This document shows, in pieces, positions 10,483 to 25,733 of a stretch of DNA of 32,147 bases. Under the pieces are notes generated by a model. The model worked only from the letters and a program-made list of their open reading frames with translations, was not told the origin of the DNA and searched no databases. A program made the position numbers and the translations under genes. Origin of the DNA: an uncultured Erysipelotrichaceae bacterium (GTDB taxonomy: Bacteria > Bacillota_I > Bacilli_A > Erysipelotrichales > Erysipelotrichaceae); contig OMXQ01000021.1 in the NCBI GenBank assembly GCA_900315065.1, positions 1 to 32,147 on the forward strand. The letters are read 5' to 3'. Positions within the stretch are counted from its first letter, which is position 1. Every line of letters starts with the position of its first letter.

Positions 10483-10739
10483 GCGCATTGTTCAAAACAG
10501 CCGGCAAATGCTATTTTACAAAGCAACAATACTTCAGTTGAGATGAAACATTGCCAATAATAAGGAAGAAGCACAGAAAGCGGTGCAGCCCTGGGAACAG
10601 CTGGACAAAATAATTCATCAATGATCATTGCTTAAGGTCTGTTTTATGTCTCTTGTTAAATCTATGTTAAACCTTGCCTGCATGTCCCAAATCAGGATTT
10701 TTCACTTCTATAATGAAATAGATCAGAGGTTGTTTTGTT
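10483..10739. other. Intergenic region with a possible decayed coding scrap and a -10 element
   Basis: No intact gene is visible. A frame ending in TGA at 10621-10623 reads NNKEEAQKAVQPWEQLDKI, which is protein-like but is preceded by two TAA codons and has no start, so it may be a gene remnant. A consensus TATAAT at 10709-10714 lies 26 bases before the next gene and probably belongs to its promoter, although no good -35 hexamer sits at 16-18 bp. Confidence 0.4.
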
Positions 10740-12347
10740 ATGGTAAACATTATCAGAAAATTGAAGAAGTCTCTGCTTTGCGGGATGAGTGCAGTCCTTG
10801 CGGCAGGCTTGTTAACAGGATGTTCTGATTCAGGCAAAGAGAAAAACTATCTTGGTAAAAAAGGGGAAATTCTGACAATTGTCTCCGGCAGTGAAAACAA
10901 GGAACTGGAACCGATTCTGGAAGAATATGCAGATCAGAATAATATCCGTATCTCTATGGTTTATAAAGGTTCGCTGGATATCATGCATGAATTGGAAGAT
11001 GGCACAACGGACTATGATGCCATCTGGCCTGCATCTTCCGTCTGGCTGAATATGGGAGATACCGCTCACAGGGTCAAATACGCTGAGTCCATTTCCATCA
11101 ATCCGGTTGTTTTCGGTATTAAGAAATCTTTAGCAGAAGAACTTGGTTTCGTGGATAAGAAGGATGTTTCCATCAAGGATATTCTTGCGGCAATTCAATC
11201 CGGCAAATTGAACTTCTGCATGACTTCTGCCACCCAGTCCAATTCCGGTGCCAGTGCTTATATCGGTTTTATCTATGCTCTGCTTGGTACCCCGGATGTC
11301 ATCACGGAAAGTGATCTGGACAAGCCGGAACTCCAGGAACAATTAAAGGAATTGTTATCCGGTATTGATCGTTCTTCCGGTTCTTCCGACTGGTTAAAAG
11401 ACATGTTTGTCAAAGGCGATTATGATGCCATGGTCAATTATGAGTGTCTGACCATTGCGGCAGATAATGAATTGACGCAGGAGGGAAGAGAACCTTTGTA
11501 TGTTGTGTATCCCTTTGATGGCCTCAGTATCGCTGATTCCCCGCTCGGCTATATCGATAATGGTGATTCCAAAAAGGAAGAAGCTTTCAAGGGCCTGCAG
11601 AAGTATCTGCTTTCTTCAGAAGCCCAGGACAAGATTCAGAGAACCGGCAGAAGAAGCGGCTATACCGGTGTCAGTGACAAGAACAAGGACGTCTTCAAAT
11701 CTGAATGGGGCTTGCAGCCGGACCGGGTCATTTCTCCGTTCAAGATGCCGGATACTGATACGATCAGGAAAGCATTGAATCTGTATCAGACAGCTTTGCG
11801 CAAGCCTTCTGCTACCGTTTATTGTCTTGATTTCTCCGGTTCGATGTCAGGAGACGGGGAAGAGCAGCTGACCAAAGCCATGGAACAGTTATTGATCCAG
11901 GCCAATGCCGCAAAGAATTATCTGCAGGCTTCTGACAAAGATATCAATATCATCATTCCGTTCAACGAAGACATCATCTATGACGAAAAGGCTGAAGGCA
12001 ACGGCACTGAAATGGAAAACCTCTATCAGGACATCGAGGCATGCGATGCCGGCGGCGGTACCAATATGTATACAGCAATTCTGCAGGGCATGGATGACCT
12101 TGCCTCATATGGAAAAGACTACAACCGGGCCATTGTCGTGATGACCGACGGCGAGTCCATGGAAGACTATGATGAACTGCAGGAAAGAGTAGAAAAAGAC
12201 GGCAGCCAGATTCCGGTTTTCTCCATTATGTATGGCGATGCCGACAAGCGGCAGCTGGAAAAGATTGCGGATCTGACTAACGCAAGAGTCTTTGACGGCC
12301 GGGATTCTTTGACAGATGCCTTCCGGAAAGTGAAGGGATACAACTGA
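10740..12347 (+). CDS. Lipoprotein with substrate-binding domain fused to a C-terminal VWA domain
   Basis: This 535-residue protein is exported and lipid-anchored. It has a basic N-terminus, a hydrophobic stretch 11-25 and a lipobox LLTGC with Cys28. Residues about 42-315 look like a type-2 periplasmic-binding fold (ILTIVSGSENKELEPIL, DYDAIWPASS at 91-100, ATQSNSGASA at 164-173, YPFDGLSIADSPLGYID at 257-273). Residues about 355-533 form a von Willebrand A domain with an intact metal site: D364-x-S366-x-S368 in DFSGSMS, T441 in GGGTNMY and D470 in VMTDGES. The combination matches proteins annotated as substrate-binding and VWA domain-containing; no biochemical role is established. It opens a three-gene unit with 1-base and 23-base overlaps. 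No ABC permease partner suited to a binding protein is nearby, so a ligand-sensing or adhesion/assembly role at the cell surface is an inference. Confidence 0.85.
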   Translation: MVNIIRKLKKSLLCGMSAVLAAGLLTGCSDSGKEKNYLGKKGEILTIVSGSENKELEPILEEYADQNNIRISMVYKGSLDIMHELEDGTTDYDAIWPASSVWLNMGDTAHRVKYAESISINPVVFGIKKSLAEELGFVDKKDVSIKDILAAIQSGKLNFCMTSATQSNSGASAYIGFIYALLGTPDVITESDLDKPELQEQLKELLSGIDRSSGSSDWLKDMFVKGDYDAMVNYECLTIAADNELTQEGREPLYVVYPFDGLSIADSPLGYIDNGDSKKEEAFKGLQKYLLSSEAQDKIQRTGRRSGYTGVSDKNKDVFKSEWGLQPDRVISPFKMPDTDTIRKALNLYQTALRKPSATVYCLDFSGSMSGDGEEQLTKAMEQLLIQANAAKNYLQASDKDINIIIPFNEDIIYDEKAEGNGTEMENLYQDIEACDAGGGTNMYTAILQGMDDLASYGKDYNRAIVVMTDGESMEDYDELQERVEKDGSQIPVFSIMYGDADKRQLEKIADLTNARVFDGRDSLTDAFRKVKGYN

Positions 12348-12952
12348 TGAATATTCTGCTCAGTATTGTTCTTTCCGTCGGTGTCTTTGGCTTGTGCGGT
12401 TTTGTCTTCAAAATGAATCTGATCTTTTCCGTCGTCATTGCAGCACTTTGTTACTTCGCTTTTTCCTTTCTGCTGAACAAAGATCCCAAGCCTGCCCCCA
12501 AGCCTTTGTATGAACCCGGCAGTCAGGAAGAAATGATGGCAGATGCGGAAGAAGATGTCAGAACACTGGAAAAGGATGCCGCAAGAATTCAGGGAGAAGT
12601 CAGTGAAACAACCGCATCTCTTGCAAAGAAGGGAAACAGGATTCTTGCATACCTGCAGGCACACCCGGAACAGATTTCTGCCAGCCGTAAGTTTGCGACC
12701 TATTATCTTGACATGGCAGGCAGGTTTGCGGACAAGTATGCGGATCTTGATGAAACCGGATTGAAAACGGAAGAAGTTGTCAATGCCAAGAAGGAAATTA
12801 CCAAAGCACTGAAGCTATTGGATAATGCCTTCGACGCCCAGTATACAAAGCTTCTTTCAGGGGATGTGATGAGCGTGGAAGCAGATGTCAAAGTTCTGCA
12901 GCAGATGGTGAATATGGAGGAACCTGGTCATGAAATTAAGCTCAAAGGTTAA
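12347..12952 (+). CDS. XpaC-like (5-bromo-4-chloroindolyl phosphate hydrolysis family) membrane protein
   Basis: This 201-residue protein has two hydrophobic segments at about 2-20 and 25-43, a Pro/Lys-rich joint (KDPKPAPKPL), and then a long helical cytoplasmic part. The end of that part, KKEITKALKLLDNAFDAQYTKLL then MSVEADVKVLQQMV, resembles the XpaC family, as does LAYLQAHPEQISASRKFATYYLD in the middle (given here in short blocks: AYLQAHPEQI and RKFATYYLDMAGR). XpaC is named from an old phenotype; its true function is unknown, and it is often found with TelA-like proteins. No telA gene is present here. The start ATG shares its first base with the stop of the preceding VWA gene, and the 3' end overlaps the next gene by 23 bases, so the three products are probably made in fixed proportion. 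Confidence 0.75.
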   Translation: MNILLSIVLSVGVFGLCGFVFKMNLIFSVVIAALCYFAFSFLLNKDPKPAPKPLYEPGSQEEMMADAEEDVRTLEKDAARIQGEVSETTASLAKKGNRILAYLQAHPEQISASRKFATYYLDMAGRFADKYADLDETGLKTEEVVNAKKEITKALKLLDNAFDAQYTKLLSGDVMSVEADVKVLQQMVNMEEPGHEIKLKG

Positions 12953-13991
12953 AGGATTTATCATCCTGGCGCTGGTATTGGCGCTGATTGTGGGATATAC
13001 AATCTTCTCCCGATCCAAACATGTGGATTCGATTACCGGCTTAGTCGGCGGGGAAAAGTTAGGATTCCTGGAGGATGAAGAAGTCGAAAATGTATTGGCC
13101 AAAGATTATCATCTGAAGCTTGATTATGCCAAAGCCGGTTCCATTGACATGGTTGCCAATCATCATGACGGCAAGGATTTCCTGTGGCCTTCTTCACAGA
13201 CTGCTCTGGAATTGTATAAGGCAAATTATGGAAATCCGGTCAAATCGGATACCATCTTCAATACGCCGATTGTTCTTTATACAAGAAAACCTGTCGCTGA
13301 TGCATTGCAGAAAGCTGGTATTGTCGCAGTGAATGATAATGTCTATACATGTGATGTCGCAAAGCTTGCGGACATGATTGAAAAGGATACTTCCTGGTCT
13401 TCCATCGGCCTGAGCCAGCTGTATGGGAATATCAAAGTTGGTACAACCGATCCTGCCAAGTCCAATTCCGGCAATATGTGGGCGGGTCTTATGGCAAATG
13501 TTTTAGCCGGCGGGATTGCAAATCAATCCAATATTTCGGAAGTATTGCCCAGACTTGAAGCAATCTTCGCAAAGAGCGGCTATATGGAAACTTCCAGTGC
13601 GGATATCTTTTCTGACTTTCTGAAGATGGGCATGGGAGCCAGGCCGATCGTTGCCGGATACGAAAGCCAGTTACTTGAATTTGCGGTAGAAAATCCGGAT
13701 ATCTTCTCTCAGGTCAAAGATGATGTTGTAATGATGTATCCGACCCCGACGGTCTGGTCCAGCCACGAATGGATCGCACTTGATGATAAAGCAGTACCGG
13801 TCATTGATGCTTTGAAGAGCGATAAAGTACAGAAGCTGGCATGGGAAAAGCATGGCTTCAGAACCGGTGTTGCCGGAGCAGAAAACAACACGGATGTCTT
13901 TGGTGTCAATGGTGTTGCTGAGAACATCACCCAGGTTGTGCAGATGCCTGACTATGCCGTCATGGATCAGATTATCAATGCTTTGTCCTGA
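12930..13991 (+). CDS. Membrane-anchored substrate-binding-like protein, paralogue of the VWA lipoprotein's binding domain
   Basis: This 353-residue protein has one N-terminal membrane segment at about 9-26 without a lipobox, so it is probably anchored with the rest outside. The body shares an ordered set of motifs with the binding half of the gene at 10740. GKDFLWPSSQ (81-90) corresponds to DYDAIWPASS, NTPIVLYTRKPVADAL to NPVVFGIKKSLAEEL, and AKSNSGNMW to TQSNSGASA. GYESQLLEF corresponds to NYECLTIAA, and KHGFRTG near the end to RRSGYTG. It has no VWA domain. I read it as a tandem paralogue that kept only the binding fold. ATG 12930 has GGAGG upstream inside the XpaC-like gene. A terminator follows the stop, closing the unit. 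The ligand is unknown. Confidence 0.75.
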   Translation: MKLSSKVKGFIILALVLALIVGYTIFSRSKHVDSITGLVGGEKLGFLEDEEVENVLAKDYHLKLDYAKAGSIDMVANHHDGKDFLWPSSQTALELYKANYGNPVKSDTIFNTPIVLYTRKPVADALQKAGIVAVNDNVYTCDVAKLADMIEKDTSWSSIGLSQLYGNIKVGTTDPAKSNSGNMWAGLMANVLAGGIANQSNISEVLPRLEAIFAKSGYMETSSADIFSDFLKMGMGARPIVAGYESQLLEFAVENPDIFSQVKDDVVMMYPTPTVWSSHEWIALDDKAVPVIDALKSDKVQKLAWEKHGFRTGVAGAENNTDVFGVNGVAENITQVVQMPDYAVMDQIINALS

Positions 13992-14029
13992 TCAATGCCT
14001 GAAAAGCGAAATGAATTATGATCAGAAGG

Positions 14030-14063
14030 AACAGATTCTGTATGATGCAGGATCTGTTTTTTT
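14030..14063 (+). terminator. Rho-independent terminator of the VWA/XpaC/binding-protein unit
   Basis: AACAGATTCT (14030-14039) pairs with AGGATCTGTT (14049-14058) with one internal mismatch, around a 9-base loop, followed by a T run to 14063. Confidence 0.8.
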
Positions 14064-14128: not shown

Positions 14129-14896
14129 ATGGAAACCATACTTGAAACCCAGCATCTCAGAAAGATTTATAATTACCGGACTGAAAATGCCTTTGAAGCT
14201 TTGCATGACATCAATTTCAAAGTTGAAAAAGGGGAGTTTGTTGCCATTATGGGACCTTCCGGATCGGGCAAATCTACTTTCATCAATAACATTTCAACGA
14301 TTGATCTGCCTACTTTCGGCAAAGTCTTTATCAAAGGAAAAGAAGTCCGTTCCATGTCTGCCAATGAAACCGGACATTTCCGCTATGAGCATCTCGGTTT
14401 TATCTTTCAGGATTTCAATCTGCTGGATACCCATACTTTATTTGAAAACATTGCCATGCCTTTGTCATTAGCACATGTAAACAAAGAGGAAATCATGAAG
14501 AGAGTCAATGACCTGGCTGACAAGATGAATATCAGAGGCATCCTTGCCAAGTATCCATATGAGTGTTCCGGCGGCCAGAGACAAAGAGCTGCCATCTGCA
14601 GAGCATTGGTCAATCAGCCAGATATCATCGTTGCGGATGAGCCGACCGGCAATCTTGACTCTGCTAATTCTGCAGAACTCATGAACATATTAGATCAGAT
14701 GAACCGGAAGGACGGGGTTACCATTGTCATGGTTACCCATGATGCTCTGATTGCCTCCTATTCTTCAAGACTCATTTATATCAGAGACGGAAATATCGAA
14801 AAACAGCTGGAAAGAAACGGGATGGACCAGGATTATTACTTCCAGAAAATTTCTGAAATCAACAATGAAGAAAGACGGGAGATTATCCGGAAATGA
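14129..14896 (+). CDS. ABC transporter ATP-binding protein, BceA/MacB-like
   Basis: This 255-residue ATPase has all the motifs: Walker A GPSGSGKST (42-50), Q-loop FIFQDFN (Gln94), signature CSGGQRQR (146-153, with Cys in place of the usual Leu), Walker B IIVADEPTGNLDS (Asp170-Glu171) and H-loop His204. The HFRYEHLGFIFQDFNLLD block and the Cys/Ser-GGQ context are typical of the BceA/VraF group. Those proteins power export or target-protection against bacitracin and other lipid-II-directed antimicrobial peptides. The start ATG 14129 follows ACAGGAGAG. The stop overlaps the start of the permease gene (ATGA). No two-component regulator lies beside it, unlike most Bce modules. The subfamily is confident; the substrate is not known. 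Confidence 0.9.
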   Translation: METILETQHLRKIYNYRTENAFEALHDINFKVEKGEFVAIMGPSGSGKSTFINNISTIDLPTFGKVFIKGKEVRSMSANETGHFRYEHLGFIFQDFNLLDTHTLFENIAMPLSLAHVNKEEIMKRVNDLADKMNIRGILAKYPYECSGGQRQRAAICRALVNQPDIIVADEPTGNLDSANSAELMNILDQMNRKDGVTIVMVTHDALIASYSSRLIYIRDGNIEKQLERNGMDQDYYFQKISEINNEERREIIRK

Positions 14897-16131
14897 TATT
14901 TCGTGATGCTTTGAAGTCGATGAAACAGGATGCCGTAAAAGCCTTCTTCTACTGGCTGACGTTTGTGCTGACATCCATGTTTATCTTCCTGTATTTTAAT
15001 ATTGCCATGAGTGATCCGGCCATTCAGCCGTTTCAGAATTCGGATAACACCATTACCAATCTGAGTGCGCTTGTTGTTGCACTTTGTTCCGTGGATATTA
15101 TCTTTGCCAATCAGTTCTATATCAAAGCCAAGGGAAGAGATCTGGCTGTGCGCTTAGTGTGCGGGGCAACGTATCTTCATTTGTCCGGCTACTTATTGAT
15201 TCAGACATTGCTGCTGTTGTTGTGTGCAGCACCGCTTGGATTCGGATTAGGAATGGTGATGCTGCCGGTCTCGGAGAAGCTTCTGTTTTCCTTTTCTGCT
15301 TCTGCCTATCATCTGACCATCCACGCTGCTGCCATCGGGGAAGCCTTATTGATTATCGGCTATGTTGTTTTCTGGATTATTTTACTGAATATGAGTTTTT
15401 CCTATCAGAATGCCCAGATCATGTTAACCAGCAACAATGTTCTGCATGGCAGCACCACTGTAAAAAAATCTGCCTTGCTGAAGATCAAAATGATTGCAGG
15501 TGCAGTTCTGTATTTATTGCCGCTGGTTTTTTTCTACGGCAATCCGTATGCATCAACTGTTTCCGTCATTGTGGGTCTGGTCGGTCTGTATTTTGTACTC
15601 CGCTATGATGTACCTCTCTGGCTTGGAAACAGGATTGAAAAAAATTACGATTCGCCGATGAAATTAGCAGTACTGGGCATGATCCGGCAGGACCTGTCCA
15701 TTCTGAAATACAACATTTTCTTATTGATCTTTACGTCGGTCATCTTTGCCGGTCTTTTTGCCATGAACAGAGAAGGCATTATCGGTCTGATTGTGCTTGT
15801 TTCCTATATTGTCATGGTCATCATGCAGGTGCTGGCATTGATGTTCCGGTTTGCGACTTCAGCTGCCGGAAGAAAGAAGAACTTTGCGATTCTGCGGCAT
15901 CTTGGCTATGAAGAGACACAACTTATTGGGATCATGAAGAAAGAAGTATGGGGCGTTTACGGCATCGTTATGGTATTCACGCTTCTCTATATCATCAATT
16001 TATCGGCAGCCTATCTGAAAGAAGGCATTATGCCGCTTCCTGTAGTTTGTCTGCTGGTAGGAGTGCCGGTTCTTGTCTCGTTTTTTGCAGCATTGACGGA
16101 TCTGATGTTCTACCGCAAAGCCGTTCTCTAG
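14893..16131 (+). CDS. Compact FtsX-like/BceB-related ABC permease lacking the extracellular sensor domain
   Basis: This 412-residue membrane protein is translationally coupled to the ATPase gene by an ATGA overlap. By eye I count ten hydrophobic segments: AFFYWLTFVLTSMFIFLYF, then around residues 55-75, 90-120, 140-168, 193-213, 216-240, 272-292, 296-320, 350-372 and 378-402. The order and the RDALKSMKQDAVKAFFYW start resemble BceB-type permeases (about 620-660 residues, ten TM). In BceB a large extracellular domain of about 200 residues sits between TM7 and TM8. Here those two segments (KYNIFLLIFTSVIFAGLFAM and GLIVLVSYIVMVIMQVLALM) are joined by about six residues. The reading frame is intact and ends normally, so this is a compact form, not a truncation. 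Peptide sensing through that domain would not be possible. Confidence 0.75.
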   Translation: MIFRDALKSMKQDAVKAFFYWLTFVLTSMFIFLYFNIAMSDPAIQPFQNSDNTITNLSALVVALCSVDIIFANQFYIKAKGRDLAVRLVCGATYLHLSGYLLIQTLLLLLCAAPLGFGLGMVMLPVSEKLLFSFSASAYHLTIHAAAIGEALLIIGYVVFWIILLNMSFSYQNAQIMLTSNNVLHGSTTVKKSALLKIKMIAGAVLYLLPLVFFYGNPYASTVSVIVGLVGLYFVLRYDVPLWLGNRIEKNYDSPMKLAVLGMIRQDLSILKYNIFLLIFTSVIFAGLFAMNREGIIGLIVLVSYIVMVIMQVLALMFRFATSAAGRKKNFAILRHLGYEETQLIGIMKKEVWGVYGIVMVFTLLYIINLSAAYLKEGIMPLPVVCLLVGVPVLVSFFAALTDLMFYRKAVL

Positions 16132-17296: not shown

Positions 17297-17333
17297 ATTG
17301 AGGTCATCCACAAAAACGACAGGAAGTGAAAGT

Positions 17334-17666
17334 ATGGAAATAGATGCGATTAAAAAGCTGATTGAAACAGATGAAAGAGTCCGCAGGGAAATTCAGGAAG
17401 AATATGACAAGCGTGACAAATTCAAGCAGGAAATCGAAGCTGAAAAGAAAAAGATTTCTGATGAAGCATGGAAAGCAGTCAATCAGCAGGTAGAAGATAC
17501 ACGAAACCAGCTGCAGGCAAAAGTAAAGGCTGATGATGAAAAGAATCAGGCTTACTACGCCAGGGCAAGCGAACTTCTGAAGAAGGACTACGCTGAAAAC
17601 AAAGACAAGTGGCGTAAGGAAATCTATCATTACGTGCTTGGCAGTACAGCAAAGGAGGCACAATGA
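17334..17666 (+). CDS. V/A-type ATPase peripheral-stalk subunit G/H
   Basis: The 110-residue product is almost entirely charged coiled coil (MEIDAIKKLIETDERV, then repeated K/E-rich heptads, YYARASELLKKDYAE) and ends YHYVLGSTAKEAQ. This is the size and style of the G/H subunit that pairs with subunit E in the peripheral stalk and ties the A3B3 head to the membrane part. Sequence alone is weak for coiled coils, so the call rests largely on being the first gene of a complete V-ATPase operon that otherwise lacks this subunit. ATG 17334 follows AGGAAGTG. Its stop overlaps the start of subunit C by four bases. Confidence 0.8.
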   Translation: MEIDAIKKLIETDERVRREIQEEYDKRDKFKQEIEAEKKKISDEAWKAVNQQVEDTRNQLQAKVKADDEKNQAYYARASELLKKDYAENKDKWRKEIYHYVLGSTAKEAQ

Positions 17667-18700
17667 GCGCTGATGGTGCAATGGCAGCCAAGGCCAGAGC
17701 AATGTTCGGCGAGCGCCTCAATGCGGATGCGTATGCAGCGTTGCTGCAGAAAAGATCACTAGGTGAGATTGTTGCGTATCTCAAAACCAATACGCTTTAC
17801 AAACACGCCCTGGAAGGCGTCAATGAAAAGGCAATTCACCGCGGCCAGCTGGAAGTATTGCTAAGAAGATCTTCCTTTGACAGATTGCAGAAACTGCTCC
17901 GCTATGGATCAAAGGAAAGCACCGAACTGATCATGGCCATGGTCATGAACATGGAAATCGAAATGATTCTCCAGTGCATCCGTTCTCTGATCAATCCTGA
18001 CAGCGATGAAAGACAGCAGATGATCGCGGAAATGCCGATGTACATTTCTCATTACATGTCATTTGATATCTCATTGTTAACGGATGTGACTAGCTACGAT
18101 GATCTGCTGAATTTACTGAAGGATACCGTTTACTACGATATTCTGCGTCGGCATCGTACCAATGATCTTCTGTCCATTGATGCCGCAAGCCTGGAACATG
18201 AGATGCGGGATGCCTATTATCAGAAGCTGATCAGAATCGCAAAAGCAAATACGTCCGGATCAGAAAGAGGCATTATTCTGCAGATGATCTCCATGGGTGC
18301 AGAACTTGAAACAATTTCAATCATTTACCGTATGAAGAAATACTTCCGGGTTGCCCCGGCTGAGATTGAACATGCGGTACCGCTGCGTACCTGCCTCTTC
18401 AAAGAAGCAGAAATGTGGAAGATGATTGAAGAAGACAGTGCGGAAGATGTACTGGACAAGTTGTCCCGCCGCTATCACCGCTATGTCAGAAACGCCGATC
18501 CGGCCAACATTGACCGCTTTATTGAAAGAATTACCTATAACATTTACTACACTGTGATTGAAACAGAAACAAGTGAGAACCTGGTCCTGATCAGTTACCT
18601 GAAACTTTCCCAGATTGAGATTCACAATGTGATCAATATCTGTGAAGGTGTCAGATACCGGATCTCCAACGACAGAATCAGAGCTCTGCTTGTGTATTAA
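17663..18700 (+). CDS. ntpC: V/A-type ATPase subunit C (central-stalk socket)
   Basis: Subunit C (homologue of eukaryotic V-ATPase subunit d) joins the rotor shaft to the membrane ring. The 345-residue all-helical protein begins MSADGAMAAKARAMFGERL and has the family pattern of LLQKRSLGEIVAYLKTNTLY near the N-terminus. Repeated three-fold helical bundles follow, with RLQKLLRYGSKE and EIHNVINICEGVRYRIS near the C-terminus, the latter resembling the usual NI(I/R)xIxEGxRY. Length is normal (about 330-350). It is coupled to the upstream gene by ATGA. In Enterococcus and most clostridial operons this gene lies after subunits I, K and E; here it precedes I. Confidence 0.9.
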   Translation: MSADGAMAAKARAMFGERLNADAYAALLQKRSLGEIVAYLKTNTLYKHALEGVNEKAIHRGQLEVLLRRSSFDRLQKLLRYGSKESTELIMAMVMNMEIEMILQCIRSLINPDSDERQQMIAEMPMYISHYMSFDISLLTDVTSYDDLLNLLKDTVYYDILRRHRTNDLLSIDAASLEHEMRDAYYQKLIRIAKANTSGSERGIILQMISMGAELETISIIYRMKKYFRVAPAEIEHAVPLRTCLFKEAEMWKMIEEDSAEDVLDKLSRRYHRYVRNADPANIDRFIERITYNIYYTVIETETSENLVLISYLKLSQIEIHNVINICEGVRYRISNDRIRALLVY

Positions 18701-18716
18701 GAGAGGAGTCAGATGA

Positions 18717-20516
18717 ATGGCAATTGTCAAAATGAAGTTCGTTGAAGCATCAACGGATGAAGCACATCGTGATGCCATGCTTCTGCAGGGAATGAATTCC
18801 GGCCTGCTGGATGTTACGCCTGCGGATCAGATTGTCACCGATGAAAACGGCGGACAGATGATCTCCCAGGACAATCCGTTTGCGGATTACAAGCAGACTC
18901 TGCAGAACTTTGCCCACGCGGTAGGTTTCACCTTTGATGAAACGAAGAAACCATCCCGTACGTATACGAAGGAAGAAATTGAATCTTTCCTGTCCGGATT
19001 GAATGAAACTTTCGGCATCAACAGTGATTCTGCCGAAGTCATTCTTACCCCGGATGATGAAAAGGCTCTGGCGGCATTGAGCGAATGCGGGTTTGAGAAA
19101 ATCCATGCCTGCCGGTATCTGAACTTTGGTTTCGGCCGGATGCCGAGAGAAAGTTTCCCTAAGCTTTCTGCTTACCGGGATGTCAACTTCGTCCATCATA
19201 GATTGCACGATACCAAGCAGTATATCTGGATGGTTTATGTAACTTCTGATTCCTATGCAGATCAGGTTGCGAACATCTTCAAGTCCCTGTACTTTGAACC
19301 GATGGAAATTCCGAATGTCGATGTGCATCGGCTGCTGCATGAATACGAAGACAAGCTGAATGATCTCTGGGCATATTGTTCCCAGGAGAACGAAATCATC
19401 TCCCGTTACAAGTACATTTCCGTATTTGACAAAAAGCAGGTGCTTTCCGGCTTTGTCACCGCTGACAGCGTTGAAAAGTACAAGGAAACTTACAAGGATC
19501 TGCCGGTAGAATTCACGGTGAAGGATCCGGAAGAAGTACCGCAGCTGCAGTGTCCGACCTTATTGAAGAACAACTGGTTTGCAAGACCTTTTGAACTTTA
19601 TGTTGACATGTATTCCATGCCTGCATACGGTGACTTCGATCCGACTTTCTTCTTAGCCATCACGTATTGCATTCTGTTCGGTATCATGTTCGGTGATATG
19701 GGACAGGGCATTGTGCTGATGCTGATCGGCTTCCTGTTTGAGAAAAAGGGCAGGCTGTTCGGTATCATCGGCAGAGTCGGCATTACTTCCACGATCATGG
19801 GTTTCCTCTTCGGTTCCCTGTTCGGTTATGAAGATGCTTTGAATCCGCTGCATCAGAAGTTGTTCCATGTGCGTGAAAAGCTCTTCGATGTCATGGCAAA
19901 TTCCAATACAATGACGCTGCTGGGCGGTGCCTTGTTAGTCGGTGCTGTATTGATTGCATGTTCCATGATCATCAATATTGTGAACAACATCCGCCACAAG
20001 AAGTGGGGCGAAGTATGGTTCTCGCAGAATGGCGTTGCCGGTATCTTCTTCTATACCTATGTGGTATTGGCTGCCGGCGGTTATCTGACCGGGGCTTACA
20101 ACCTGCTGCTTGCACCGTTTGTCGTTCTGTTTGTGATTGTGCCTGTCTTCTGTTTCCTGATGAAGGAACCGCTGACCAATCTCATCAGTCATAAGCCGGT
20201 CAAGCCGGCAGAAGGCTGGGGCGGCTACATGACCCAGAATGTCTTCGAAGTATTGGAAATTCTGCTGTCATTTGTGACCAACTCCATGTCGTATCTGCGT
20301 GTCGGCGGCTTCGTATTGTCACATGCCGGCATGATGCTTGTTGTTATGACGCTGGTCAAGATGACGGGCAATGCAGGACCAGTAGTCCTGGTCATCGGCA
20401 ATGCCTTTGTCATGGTACTGGAAGGCCTGGTTGTAGGTATTCAGGCTCTGCGTCTTGAATATTATGAAATGTTCTCCCGTTACTATACCGGCGGGGGAAG
20501 AAAGTTTGCAGCATAA
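18717..20516 (+). CDS. ntpI: V/A-type ATPase subunit I (a-subunit)
   Basis: Subunit I forms the stator half-channels that pass ions to the proteolipid ring. The 599-residue protein has a soluble N-terminal arm (about 1-305) that contacts the peripheral stalks, and a membrane half from about 310 with repeated hydrophobic segments (FFLAITYCILFGIMFGDMGQ, LMLIGFLFEKKGRLFG and later). The essential stator arginine is in NSMSYLRVGGFVLSHAGMM, Arg528. The size is a little below the common 640-690. ATG 18717 has GAGAGGAG upstream; an ATG at 18713 is out of frame. The C-terminal YYEMFSRYYTGGGRKFA matches the family end (EFYGKFYxGxGxxF). Confidence 0.95.
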   Translation: MAIVKMKFVEASTDEAHRDAMLLQGMNSGLLDVTPADQIVTDENGGQMISQDNPFADYKQTLQNFAHAVGFTFDETKKPSRTYTKEEIESFLSGLNETFGINSDSAEVILTPDDEKALAALSECGFEKIHACRYLNFGFGRMPRESFPKLSAYRDVNFVHHRLHDTKQYIWMVYVTSDSYADQVANIFKSLYFEPMEIPNVDVHRLLHEYEDKLNDLWAYCSQENEIISRYKYISVFDKKQVLSGFVTADSVEKYKETYKDLPVEFTVKDPEEVPQLQCPTLLKNNWFARPFELYVDMYSMPAYGDFDPTFFLAITYCILFGIMFGDMGQGIVLMLIGFLFEKKGRLFGIIGRVGITSTIMGFLFGSLFGYEDALNPLHQKLFHVREKLFDVMANSNTMTLLGGALLVGAVLIACSMIINIVNNIRHKKWGEVWFSQNGVAGIFFYTYVVLAAGGYLTGAYNLLLAPFVVLFVIVPVFCFLMKEPLTNLISHKPVKPAEGWGGYMTQNVFEVLEILLSFVTNSMSYLRVGGFVLSHAGMMLVVMTLVKMTGNAGPVVLVIGNAFVMVLEGLVVGIQALRLEYYEMFSRYYTGGGRKFAA

Positions 20517-20555
20517 GTAATTGAAGGACAGAAAGTCCGGGAGGAAAAAATTATT

Positions 20556-20990
20556 ATGTTAACTATCAGTGAAATGTTATTGCCGCTTGTTGCCGTTGTA
20601 CTCGTGATCGGTCCGCTTTGGATCATGTTCCGCAAGGGTGTTAACCGCACCAATGCCAGAAGCAGACTGCTTGCTCAGATTTCTTTGTTTGCAGGTGTAT
20701 TCCTTGTCTGCATGATCGTCGGCGGTCATCAGTTTGTCGCTTTTGCTGAAGATGCTTCTGCTACTGCTGCTGACAGCGCAAAGGGCTATGGTTTCCTGGC
20801 TGCCGCAATTGCGGTTGCTGCTTCTTCTCTTGGTGCTGCCTGGGCTGTTGCCAAGGCTGCTCCGGCTGCCATCGGTGCTATTTCTGAAAATCCGGATAAC
20901 TTCGGTAAAGCAATCATCTTCGTCGCCCTGGGTGAAGGTATTGCCATTTATGGTCTTCTGATTTCCATCCTCATCATCAACGCACTCTGA
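20556..20990 (+). CDS. ntpK: V/A-type ATPase proteolipid subunit K
   Basis: The ring subunit carries the ion through the membrane. The 144-residue protein has four hydrophobic segments: 6-25, 41-63, 77-99 and 117-142. Only the second pair looks like a classic proteolipid hairpin, with the loop ISENPDNFGKA and the ion-binding carboxylate Glu127 in VALGEGIAIYGLL. The first pair (LLPLVAVVLVIGPLWIMF and QISLFAGVFLVCMIVGGH) has no carboxylate. This layout is known in clostridial V-ATPases and gives one ion site per four helices. The residues used by the Enterococcus Na+ ring (the TQ pair, a Thr after the Glu) are not apparent. GGGAGGA precedes ATG 20556. Confidence 0.92.
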   Translation: MLTISEMLLPLVAVVLVIGPLWIMFRKGVNRTNARSRLLAQISLFAGVFLVCMIVGGHQFVAFAEDASATAADSAKGYGFLAAAIAVAASSLGAAWAVAKAAPAAIGAISENPDNFGKAIIFVALGEGIAIYGLLISILIINAL

Positions 20991-21298
20991 TGAAGGCATT
21001 CTGCATCAGTGACAACACCGATACCCAGACGGGTATGCGTTTAGCCGGCATTGAAGGCGGCGTGTATCATGAGCGTGAAGCAATTCTGAAGAAACTTGAT
21101 GAATTGATTCATGATCCTGAGATTGCCGTTATTCTGATGACGACCAAGTGTGTTGAATTAACCGGCGACGTGGTTTCAGATTACAAACTCAATCTGCCGC
21201 GTCCGCTGATTGTTGAAATCCCGGATCGACATGGTTCCGGCAATATCGGCGCAACGATTGATTCCTATATCAGTGAAGCGATCGGTATCAAACTGTGA
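20990..21298 (+). CDS. ntpG: V/A-type ATPase subunit F
   Basis: Subunit F is a small Rossmann-like protein of the rotor shaft, binding subunit D and tuning ATPase activity. The 102-residue protein has the family pattern KAFCISDNTDTQTGMRLAGI at the N-terminus, a central IAVILMTTKCVE strand-helix and LIVEIPDRHGSG near the end, close to the usual P-x-I-x-x-I-P. Length is normal. Its ATG shares one base with the stop of subunit K (TGATG). The symbol follows the Enterococcus naming, where this subunit is NtpG. Confidence 0.92.
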   Translation: MKAFCISDNTDTQTGMRLAGIEGGVYHEREAILKKLDELIHDPEIAVILMTTKCVELTGDVVSDYKLNLPRPLIVEIPDRHGSGNIGATIDSYISEAIGIKL

Positions 21299-21302
21299 GG
21301 TG

Positions 21303-21914
21303 ATGGAATTGGAAAAGTATGAAGAGGAAATCCTGAAGAAGATTGATGAGGACGTCAGTTCGAATGCGGATCTGATCCGTACACAGGTAGAGACCGAGAA
21401 TGAAAATCTTCACCAGGATCAGCTTTCCTTTTTCAAGGAAGGCCTGAAGAAGGAAACAGATACTTATCTGGAAAAAGAACTGGCAGAACAGCGTTTCTTC
21501 GCTGCTACCAAGACTTCTACCGATAAGATGAATACAAAGAAAAAGCTTCTGGCTCTGCGTCAGTCATTGAGTGATGAACTATTCAATGATGTCCGCAGCG
21601 ACCTGAAGAAATTTACCAAGTCAGCTGAATATGAAACCTGGCTTCGTGATCGTCTCAGGGAAGTTCCGTTAAGCAGAACCGGATATTTCCTGGCACGGGA
21701 AGAAGACATGGATCTTCTGAAGAAGCTGCTTGCTGAGATTCATTGTGATCTTGAAGTAAAGAAGGGTTATCCTGAAATCGGCGGTTTTGTTTATGCCGAT
21801 GTGGAAAACAGCGTTGAATACAGCTGTACATTAGGCGAAAAACTGAAGGAAGCGGGCGAATGGTTCCGCAACCATGCAGAATTTTATATTACGGAAAGCG
21901 GTGAAAATGTATGA
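21303..21914 (+). CDS. ntpE: V/A-type ATPase subunit E (peripheral stalk)
   Basis: Subunit E pairs with G/H to make the peripheral stalks. The 203-residue protein starts MELEKYEEEILKKIDEDV with a long helical N-terminal half. It ends in a mixed globular domain (LEVKKGYPEIGGFVYADVE, where the GG(F/V) strand pair is typical). I chose ATG 21303, which follows GAGGTG and begins the helical family N-terminus. Upstream in-frame codons to 21210 lie inside subunit F and encode unrelated residues. Its 3' end overlaps subunit A by four bases. Confidence 0.88.
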   Translation: MELEKYEEEILKKIDEDVSSNADLIRTQVETENENLHQDQLSFFKEGLKKETDTYLEKELAEQRFFAATKTSTDKMNTKKKLLALRQSLSDELFNDVRSDLKKFTKSAEYETWLRDRLREVPLSRTGYFLAREEDMDLLKKLLAEIHCDLEVKKGYPEIGGFVYADVENSVEYSCTLGEKLKEAGEWFRNHAEFYITESGENV

Positions 21915-23662
21915 GTGATGTCATTTATTCCATCAACGGTTCCGTCATTTCCGTCCGTCATGCCAAAAATCTTGCCATGCGTGAGATGGTATATGTCGGT
22001 GATAAGAAACTGCTTGGCGAAGTGATCCGTATTGATGACGACAGAGTCATGATCCAGGTCTATGAATCCACAACCGGATTAAGACCAGGCGAAGAAGTCG
22101 TCGGTACCGGTTCATTATTGAATGCAACTTTAGGTCCTGGCATTCTGCGCAATATCTATGATGGTATTGAAAGACCTTTGCAGCAGATTGCGGAGGAACA
22201 AGGTGCCTTTATCTCAGCCGGCAAGACAATTGCTTCGCTGGATGAAAATAAGAAGTGGCATGTCACCATGAAGATCAAGGAAGGCGATCAGGTAAAGGGC
22301 GGACAGATTTTTGCGACCTGTCCGGAGACCAGTCTGATTGAACATCGTTCTCTGATCCCGGTCGGTATTTCCGGTACAGTGGTCAAGGCTGTTGGCGATG
22401 GTGATTATACAGTTAACGACGTTCTTGCCGAAATCAAAGATGAAGAAAGCGGCAAGGTTACGGAAGTATATCTGAAGCAGAAGTGGCCGATCCGTAATCC
22501 GCGTCCGATTCTGAACAGAGAACCGATTTCCATGCCGTTGGTAACCGGCCAGCGTGTCATTGATACCATGTTCCCGATTGCCAAGGGCGGCTCGAGTGCA
22601 TTGCCGGGCGGTTTTGGTGCCGGCAAGACAATGATGCAGCATCAGATCGCCAAGTGGTGTGATGCCGATATCATCGTTTACGTTGGCTGCGGCGAGCGCG
22701 GCAACGAAATGACCCAGGTTCTGGAAGAATTCTCTGAACTGACTGACCCGAAGAGCGGCAAGCCTCTGTTAGATAGAACCGTATTGATTGCCAATACTTC
22801 CAACATGCCGGTAGCAGCTCGTGAAGCAAGTATCTATACTGGTGTTACGATTGCTGAGTATTATCGTGACATGGGCTATCATGTTGCCTTAATGGCAGAT
22901 TCTTCTTCCCGTTGGGCAGAAGCATTGCGTGAAATTTCCGGCCGTCTGGAAGAAATGCCGGCTGAAGAAGGCTTCCCGGCTTACCTGCCGTCCCGTATTG
23001 CCCAGTTCTATGAAAGAGCAGGCTATGTGGATACCTTATCCGGCAGCAAGGGTTCCGTTACTTTGATCGGCGCCGTATCTCCGCAAGGCGGTGACTTCTC
23101 TGAACCGGTTACAGCCAATACAAAGAGATTCGTCAGATGTTTCTGGGCATTGGATAAGTCGCTTGCTTACGCAAGACACTTCCCGGCCATGAACTGGAAT
23201 GAATCTTATTCCGAATACATTGATGATCTTTCTCATTGGTACAACCAGAATGTTGCTCATGACTTCCTGGATCTGCGTGCAATGATGCAGACAGTTCTGC
23301 ATGAAGAAGCCAATCTGATGGAAGTCGTCAAGCTGATCGGTTCGGATGTATTGCCGGAAGATCAGAAGCTGACACTGGAAATTGCCCGTGTTATTCGTGT
23401 CGGTTTCCTGCAGCAGAATGCATTCCACAAGGACGATACATCTGTTTCGCTTGAGAAGCAGTACAAGATGATGAAGACCATCGACTATCTGCGCCGTGCC
23501 TGCAGCCAATATGTTGCTAAGAAGATTCCGGTTACTTTGATCAAAGAAACAGGCATCTTTGAAAAGGTCATTCAGATCAAGTATGAAGTACCAAATGACA
23601 AGCTGGCATTGCTCGATGAATATCCGGCTATGATTGATGCCGCACTGGCTAAGATTGAATGA
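21911..23662 (+). CDS. ntpA: V/A-type ATPase catalytic subunit A
   Basis: Subunit A carries the catalytic sites of the A3B3 head. The 583-residue protein has the beta-barrel start [17 protein letters not shown], the long non-homologous insert specific to A subunits (about 110-185), and the P-loop [12 protein letters not shown] at about 231-242. It also has the catalytic [15 protein letters not shown] block, [19 protein letters not shown] and a C-terminal helical bundle. Length is typical. It starts by ATGA overlap with subunit E and is 16 bases from subunit B. With B, D, F, E, H, C, I and K all present, the operon can encode a full rotary enzyme. The direction of use (ion pumping or ATP synthesis) cannot be read from sequence. 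Confidence 0.98.
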
Positions 23663-23678
23663 AAGGGGGATCAGAAAC

Positions 23679-25100
23679 GTGAGTCTGCAGTTATTAGGCC
23701 TGCAAGAGATCAGGGGTTCTCTGATTGCCCTGGATCATGTCAGGAATGTATCAAATGAAGAAATGGTTTCCATTGAACTTGCGGATGGTTCTCAGAGAAT
23801 CGGCAGAGTCATGGAAATTGAAGGAGAAAAGGCTGTCATTCAGGTCTTCGAAGGCACTGACGGCATGTCTCCTACCAACGTCAAGACAAAGCTTCTCGGC
23901 CACCCGATGGTACTTGGTCTTTCCAGAGAAATTCTGGGCCGTACTTTCAATGGTGTCGGTGAATTGATTGACGGTCTGGGTGATATTTATCCCCAGAAGT
24001 TTGAAGATGTCAACGGCATGCCGCTGAACCCGGTATCCCGTGTTTATCCGCGTAACTATATCCAGACAGGCATCTCTGCCATCGATGGTCTGAATACATT
24101 GATCAGAGGACAGAAGCTGCCGATCTTCTCCGGATCCGGTCTGCCGCATGATCAGCTGGCTACCCAGATTGTCAGACAGGCAAAGCTGACGGGCGAAGAC
24201 AGTGAGAACTTCTGTATCGTTTTCGGCGCCATGGGTGTCAAGAACGACGTCGCAGATATGTTCCGCCGTTCCTTCGAAGAAACCGGCGTCATGGAAAAGG
24301 TTGTCATGTTTATCAACCTGGCTGATGACCCGATTGTTGAAAGAATGTTAACGCCAAGATGTGCATTGACTGCTGCTGAGTATCTTGCATACGAATGCGG
24401 CAAGAATGTCCTGGTTGTTCTGACTGATATGACTTCCTATTGTGAAGCTATCCGTGAAATTTCTTCCTCTAAGGGAGAAATTCCTTCCCGTAAAGGTTTC
24501 CCAGGCTACCTGTATTCTGATCTTGCCTCTTTGTATGAAAGAGCAGGCATCGTCAAGGGCGGCAAGGGTTCCGTTACTCAGATTCCGATCCTGACAATGC
24601 CGAATGATGATATTACCCATCCGGTACCTGACTTAACTGGTTATATTACCGAAGGCCAGATCGTTCTGGATCGTGATCTGTATCTGAAGGGTATCAATCC
24701 GCCGATCGGCGTATTGCAGTCATTGAGCCGTCTGATGAAGGACGGCATCGGTGAAGGCTATACCAGAGCCGATCATCAGGATGTTGCCAACCAGCTCTTT
24801 GCTTCTTATGCAAAGGTGCAGGAAGCCAGATCTCTTGCTTCTGTCATTGGTGAAGATGAATTGTCTGAGCTCGATCAGAAGTACATGAAATTCGGCCGCA
24901 GATTTGAAGAAATCTTCGTCGGCCAGGGCTTCCATACCAACCGCTCTATTCAGGAAACATTGAACTTAGGCTGGGCATTGCTGTCCACGCTGCCGGTTGA
25001 AGCTCTGGATCGTCTGGATCCGAAGCTGATCAAGGCAAACTATAATCCTGAACGCGCTGAGCGTACGATTTCACTTGCTGTAGAGCAGGAGGAAAAATAA
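23679..25100 (+). CDS. ntpB: V/A-type ATPase regulatory subunit B
   Basis: Subunit B alternates with A in the head and holds non-catalytic nucleotide sites. The 473-residue protein contains [38 protein letters not shown] (where A subunits and F1 have a P-loop, and as expected there is no GKT), [18 protein letters not shown] and [16 protein letters not shown] chose GTG 23679 as start, since AAAGGGGGA lies about nine bases upstream and the following [10 protein letters not shown] matches where the family begins. The extension back to 23634 lies inside subunit A. The gene is directly followed by subunit D. Confidence 0.97.
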
Positions 25101-25733
25101 ATGAGCGGCGTTCCGGCAACCAAAGGCAATCTGATCAAGGCAAGAAAGTCTCTTGCTTTGGCGCAAAACGGCTACGAGCTTATGGATCGTAAGCGGAATA
25201 TTCTGGTCAAGGAAATGATGGCTGAAGTTGAAACCGTCAAGAAGCTTCGTGATCAGATCACAGATGCTTATGCCACCGGGTATTTCCTGCTGCAGCAGGC
25301 CAATGTCTATTCCGGTGTCATTGACAGAGTAGCCCGCCGGACAAAAATTGAGAGTTCCATTCATGTCACATACCGTTCCGTTATGGGCGTCGAAGTACCG
25401 AAGGTTATCTATCATGCTCCGGATCACTACGAAGTACCGTACGGCATGGAAGACACGAATGCTGCGATCGATGAAGCTTATATCCAGTTTCAGAAAGTCA
25501 AGGAAATCACCATGGTCCTTGCCGAAGTAGACAATACCGTCTATCGTCTGGCTCATGCTATTTCCACGACCCAGAAACGTGCAAATGCTTTGAAGAACAT
25601 CGTGATTCCGCGTTACCAGGAACAGATCCGTGTCATGACTGCAGATCTGGAAGAAAAGGAACGTGAAGAATTCTCACGTATGAAGGTCATCAAGGCAAAC
25701 AAGGAAAAACAGGCAAAGCGGGCAGCGGCATAA
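25101..25733 (+). CDS. ntpD: V/A-type ATPase subunit D (rotor shaft)
   Basis: Subunit D is the central rotor, a long antiparallel coiled coil turning inside the A3B3 head. The 210-residue protein starts VPATKGNLIKARKSLALAQN, matching the family pattern P(T/N)K..L..LK..L..A. It has the second coiled-coil helix near its end (TTQKRANALKNIVIPRYQEQ), a family hallmark, and a charged tail. ATG 25101 immediately follows the subunit B stop, with GCAGGAGGA upstream. It is the last gene of the operon and a strong terminator lies about 25 bases after it. Confidence 0.96.
   Translation: MSGVPATKGNLIKARKSLALAQNGYELMDRKRNILVKEMMAEVETVKKLRDQITDAYATGYFLLQQANVYSGVIDRVARRTKIESSIHVTYRSVMGVEVPKVIYHAPDHYEVPYGMEDTNAAIDEAYIQFQKVKEITMVLAEVDNTVYRLAHAISTTQKRANALKNIVIPRYQEQIRVMTADLEEKEREEFSRMKVIKANKEKQAKRAAA

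Follow-up and report, generated by a model that had tools for sequence, protein, structure and literature searches.

The window analysed here, a stretch of 32,147 nucleotides from an uncultured Erysipelotrichaceae bacterium, carries a cassette of three overlapping genes encoding a solute-binding protein fused to a VWA domain (SBP-VWA, gene 1), an XpaC-family membrane protein (gene 2) and a second binding protein (SBP2, gene 3) (Table 1). On re-reading, the gene coordinates and the overlaps of 1 base between genes 1 and 2 and 23 bases between genes 2 and 3 matched those of the initial annotation exactly. The same annotation had placed the cassette under one promoter and one terminator, of which the terminator was recovered and the promoter only in part, as a perfect TATAAT lacking a consensus -35; a consensus promoter scan reported no forward-strand promoter upstream of the cassette.

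Table 1. Features of the cassette and its immediate surroundings in the window.
Feature	Position	Strand	Description
SBP-VWA lipoprotein, 535 aa (gene 1)	10740..12347	+	lipobox LLTGC28, SBP_bac_11 about 45-305, VWA about 359-522
XpaC-family (PF10112) protein, 201 aa (gene 2)	12347..12952	+	two N-terminal TM helices, cytoplasmic helical domain
SBP2 (gene 3)	12930..13991	+	N-terminal TM anchor, extracytoplasmic type-II binding-protein fold, paralogue of the gene 1 SBP half
-10-like element TATAAT	10709..10714	+	read from sequence; recognisable -35 absent
Terminator-like hairpin, strong	14025..14063	+	18 pairs plus U tract
ABC ATPase and 412-aa permease	14129..16131	+	FtsE/LolD/bacteriocin-export type; same insertion as cassette

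Gene 1 matched SBP_bac_11 (PF13531; E 2e-17) with 64.1 bits against a Pfam cut-off of 25, a score that qualifies its N-terminal half as a type-II solute-binding protein, and its C-terminal half matched VWA (PF00092; E 2e-11). The metal-binding MIDAS residues of the VWA domain (D364, S366, S368, T441 and D470; DxSxS, T, D) are intact and were kept in all 22 aligned relatives of gene 1, drawn from Bacillota, Pseudomonadota, Deinococcota and Actinomycetota, so that the domain is predicted to carry a functional MIDAS. Together with the lipobox, these matches bear out the initial description of an exported lipoprotein with an intact VWA metal site and a binding-protein domain. The AlphaFold2 model of gene 1 was poor (pLDDT 51) and usable for matching the SBP fold only. 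HptA was a weak match to gene 1 in both sequence and fold.

The two-TM architecture with an XpaC-like helical domain on the inside, proposed initially for gene 2, was supported by a match to PF10112 covering model positions 4-190 of 191 (E 5e-25; 89 bits against a curated cut-off of 29.8) and by the two helices at its N terminus. Gene 3 had no meaningful match in Pfam or NCBIfam. A profile of gene 3 nevertheless aligned with one of the gene 1 SBP half over 295 columns (22 and 23 sequences; 99.4% probability, E 1.8e-21), and the AlphaFold2 model of gene 3 (pTM 0.71) adopted a type-II periplasmic-binding fold; both results uphold the earlier view of the second binding protein as a TM-anchored paralogue of the first. 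In fold, both proteins come closest to binding proteins for ferric iron, sulfate and polyamines, the best structural match of the gene 3 model being FutA1 (Z 15.8, rmsd 3.4, 258 residues aligned). We considered and set aside SBP2 as a simple iron-binding protein: FbpA/FutA were nearest, but sulfate, polyamine and sugar binders scored within about 1 Z unit, and for this reason no ligand is claimed.

A search of genome contigs returned four relatives of the cassette in Lachnospiraceae or Clostridiales MAGs, each carrying the full trio in the order seen in the window, with gene 1 60-62% identical. Among 299 genomes of Lachnospiraceae, the family of one of these relatives (G434), SBP-VWA occurred in 13 and SBP2 in 14, the 13 coinciding (hypergeometric p 7e-22) and the fourteenth SBP2 genome (G508) holding a decayed remnant. 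We then compared 22 Bacillota loci (the window, L016-L019, L028, L029, L040-L051 and L109-L111; the remnant L052 was left out), and the order SBPVWA-XpaC-SBP2 was found in all of them, with the qualifiers that L109 stops within XpaC and that a stop interrupts SBPVWA in L045. The co-occurrence check suggested in the initial annotation thus showed SBP-VWA, XpaC and SBP2 recurring as one conserved unit in other genomes, and since the order of the trio holds across 22 loci, the three genes are not rarely adjacent elsewhere. The unit places two paralogous binding domains outside the cell and the XpaC helical domain inside, as first described; it recurs in other gut bacteria, usually with TelA adjacent or elsewhere in the genome. 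At L111 (9221-13239) a tandem second SBPVWA, split over two frames, and a second XpaC lie upstream of an intact SBPVWA-XpaC-SBP2-TelA set, and at L016 (3061-6495) the gene directly upstream of the cassette encodes a large NTPase that has TPR-like repeats in tandem and by eye resembles NACHT/STAND proteins.

Two binding proteins of type-II fold, nearest to ferric, sulfate and polyamine binders, could be orphan solute scavengers that feed an importer encoded elsewhere, with XpaC incidental. We regard this as very unlikely: an SBP fused to VWA and tied to XpaC is not how importers are laid out, the cassette tracks TelA (see below), and an SBP-type importer was not a consistent neighbour of the cassette across the 22 Bacillota loci surveyed. 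Nor does the cassette itself include an adjacent SBP-dependent permease and ATPase, and the interpretation as an importer module was dropped because no consistent permease was found. In the window, the ABC pair downstream is of the FtsE/LolD type, in agreement with the initial statement that no importer served by binding proteins lies next door, and it does not accompany the cassette at the other loci read. Permeases related to its 412-aa permease have multiplied across the genus, sometimes in tandem.

A tblastn search of plasmid records also placed relatives of SBP-VWA and SBP2 near one another in Variovorax, Sphaerotilus, Nonomuraea and Deinococcus. In Variovorax and Sphaerotilus (Burkholderiales) and in the actinomycete Nonomuraea the gene order is SBP2-TelA-SBPVWA followed by a two-TM protein of 206-226 aa whose N-terminal region is hydrophobic and whose C-terminal tail is long; Deinococcus has the same gene set without an adjacent TelA. 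The SBP-VWA proteins of these four genera, which NCBI names 'substrate-binding and VWA domain-containing protein', share the architecture of gene 1 and about 27-28% identity with it over near full length, whereas their loci differ from the Bacillota cassette in gene order (SBP2-TelA-SBPVWA-two-TM) and in a two-TM protein without a Pfam match. This protein occupies the position equivalent to XpaC in Burkholderiales, Deinococcus and Nonomuraea, and profile comparison with PF10112 gave 61-74% probability when the TM helices were included and 1.3% for the C-terminal domain alone, values that fall short of establishing homology to XpaC. On a Variovorax plasmid (L105, 1857-19563), SBP2-TelA-SBPVWA is flanked by a flotillin/OB-fold pair on one side and a Wadjet (JetABCD) defence system on the other.

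TelA, reported absent in the initial annotation, is indeed missing from the window, where none lies next to XpaC. It is, however, present in the same genome, which encodes a full-length TelA on another contig (G000:C69:16663-17640; 412 bits), and in the wider cassette family, where 13 of the 22 Bacillota loci (L017, L018, L028, L040, L041, L044, L046, L047, L049, L051 and L109-L111) carry it as a fourth gene directly downstream of SBP2, truncated in L017 and L049 and followed by an AAA ATPase in L028. Within the Lachnospiraceae sample, TelA occurred in all 14 carriers (one of them the remnant) compared with 156 of the 299 genomes overall (p 8e-5, post hoc and with phylogeny ignored), and each of the eight carriers that lacked a full adjacent TelA had one elsewhere (p 0.004, likewise post hoc and ignoring phylogeny). 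Where TelA copies were counted by genome, all eight genomes with a full TelA beside the cassette lacked a second copy, and of the 11 genomes without such a neighbour 10 had a full copy elsewhere; the p of 1e-4 for this contrast is again post hoc and takes no account of phylogeny. From this complementary cis/trans pattern it would follow that a single TelA can work with two or more XpaC-type adaptors. The sole exception, G304, has no TelA anywhere in its genome, and at its locus (L029, 7270-8229) an SPFH/Band 7 gene follows SBP2 in the position of TelA. An XpaC system operating without TelA, as the initial annotation had implied, was therefore rejected, TelA being the usual neighbour of the cassette and present in trans both in this genome and in 10 of the 11 carriers lacking a full adjacent copy.

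Nearly all of the genus relatives searched carry TelA, which is therefore taken as a resident gene. On contig C69 we also noted, as a second locus, another PF10112 protein together with a SpoVK/CbbX-like AAA ATPase, a secreted protein and TelA (L015, 6628-12556); the secreted protein has a phage-lysozyme fold (phage-tail-lysozyme) with Ig-like domains. Many genus relatives (G004, G005, G011, G013-G018 and G021) encode, as a second such protein, a short TelA-like one (about 300-327 aa), which aligns with the first two thirds of TelA only. The truncated TelA genes of L017 and L049 resemble this short protein.

Since the trio recurs, mostly with TelA in the genome, it is probably a surface-sensing front end of an envelope-stress system, and we give an even chance to the cassette supplying the extracytoplasmic and membrane-spanning portion of an XpaC-TelA system of this kind. 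A sensing or envelope-stress role, as first suggested, fits the published data on XpaC and TelA, which have been connected, by a mechanism that is not known, with the ability to withstand nisin, other bacteriocins and tellurite (PMC12791056). XpaC-TelA is induced by the bacteriocin garvicin KS, and mutation of telA makes Listeria sensitive to nisin (PMC12791056); in Lactococcus the pair is induced with a CesSR-type response under the stress of membrane-protein overproduction (PMC3139573). The known XpaC-TelA (YaaN) pairs (Listeria lmo1966-lmo1967 and Lactococcus llmg_1115-1116) likewise combine PF10112 with TelA in an envelope-stress setting, whereas the cassette adds two extracytoplasmic SBP-type proteins, one of them fused to VWA, and here has its TelA in trans. 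A precedent for a binding protein acting as a sensor is HptA, which passes glucose-6-phosphate binding to HptS (PMC8774646). The likeness to the HptA-HptRS system of Staphylococcus aureus lies in sensing rather than import, although HptA signals to a histidine kinase and the membrane partner in the cassette is XpaC, with no kinase included.

From these associations we infer a physical complex in which a head outside the cell, for sensing or for assembly, is coupled by XpaC to TelA. The SBP-VWA lipoprotein and the TM-anchored SBP2 would recognise a ligand or a damaged-envelope component outside, pair via their SBP or VWA domains and then act on XpaC, whose two TM helices would pass this state inwards to the cytoplasmic helical domain. 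As output, XpaC would recruit or organise TelA under the membrane and, in some genomes, possibly also a CbbX/SpoVK-like AAA ATPase. If no telA accompanies the cassette, which is the case in the window, the resident TelA would serve in trans.

The same components could instead form an extracytoplasmic assembly or metalation factor, in which exported proteins or their metals would be bound at the membrane by the MIDAS and the SBP domains, with help from TelA-XpaC on the inside, and the role of the unit would be in secretion or protein maturation. The invariance of the MIDAS in 22 of 22 relatives, the induction of XpaC-TelA upon membrane-protein over-production (PMC3139573), the SPFH gene that stands in for TelA in L029 and the presence of type VII EccA among the nearest families of the AAA partner are all consistent with such a factor, but a secreted client gene is not consistently found beside the cassette, and we consider this reading unlikely.

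Equally improbable in our judgement is a Ter-like defence system whose main role would be immunity and not general envelope stress, in which attack by phages or peptides would be sensed by the surface heads and TelA would raise a barrier to entry beneath the membrane. The Ter literature proposes that TelA and TerF-VWA form sub-membrane structures that block the entry of phage or xenobiotics (PMC7824862), and the patchy, mobile distribution of the cassette, the flotillin and Wadjet genes near the Variovorax copy and the NACHT/TPR-like gene upstream in L016 point the same way. Against this, the neighbours at most loci are of housekeeping type, as far as read, and the cassette was found in none of 50,697 phage records. 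Ter systems (TerY/TerF VWA, TelA) likewise bring VWA and TelA into one functional context, whereas the VWA domain of the cassette is extracytoplasmic and fused to an SBP. No TerD, TerB or TerC was seen in the annotated plasmid loci or among the Bacillota neighbours, the latter judged from their first residues only.

The component families of the cassette are already known and the fusion protein has already been named by NCBI; in the literature covered, which excludes the 2012 Ter survey, we found no description of an SBP-VWA/XpaC/SBP2 module with TelA. Extended to the relatives beyond Bacillota, the sensing front end proposed here could tentatively, with somewhat less than an even chance, be a widespread transmembrane signalling or remodelling machine of at least three phyla, in which two paralogous non-transport SBPs, one with a metal-dependent VWA head, drive TelA via a two-helix membrane adaptor. 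If true, TelA and XpaC would gain a defined extracellular input, and the tracking of TelA by the cassette across genomes suggests what TelA responds to. The gene set is small and transferable to a laboratory host.

The cassette looks horizontally acquired in the genome of the window, judging from gene order and sequence similarity: it splits the rpsU/phoH pair of sister species, and its closest relatives are Lachnospiraceae/Clostridiales (60-62%). In the sister species the run MurE, DeoC, RpsU continues directly into PhoH, the gap between RpsU and PhoH being roughly 75-135 bases where both were read, while in the window 5.8 kb containing the cassette and the ABC pair separate the two genes. 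No full-length match to gene 1 was found in the other genomes among 60 searched, mostly of the same genus or order, and of 392 genomes from the phylum only two others carried SBP2. A phage origin was considered on a weak PHROG match (phrog_22867, residues 6-97) and discarded, having no backing from the phage records. Further downstream, a V-type ATPase operon lies between PhoH and a Na/Pi-cotransporter-like gene (17298-25733). In sister species PhoH is followed directly by the Na/Pi-cotransporter-like gene or by YbeY, and from this gene order the operon looks like a second insertion.
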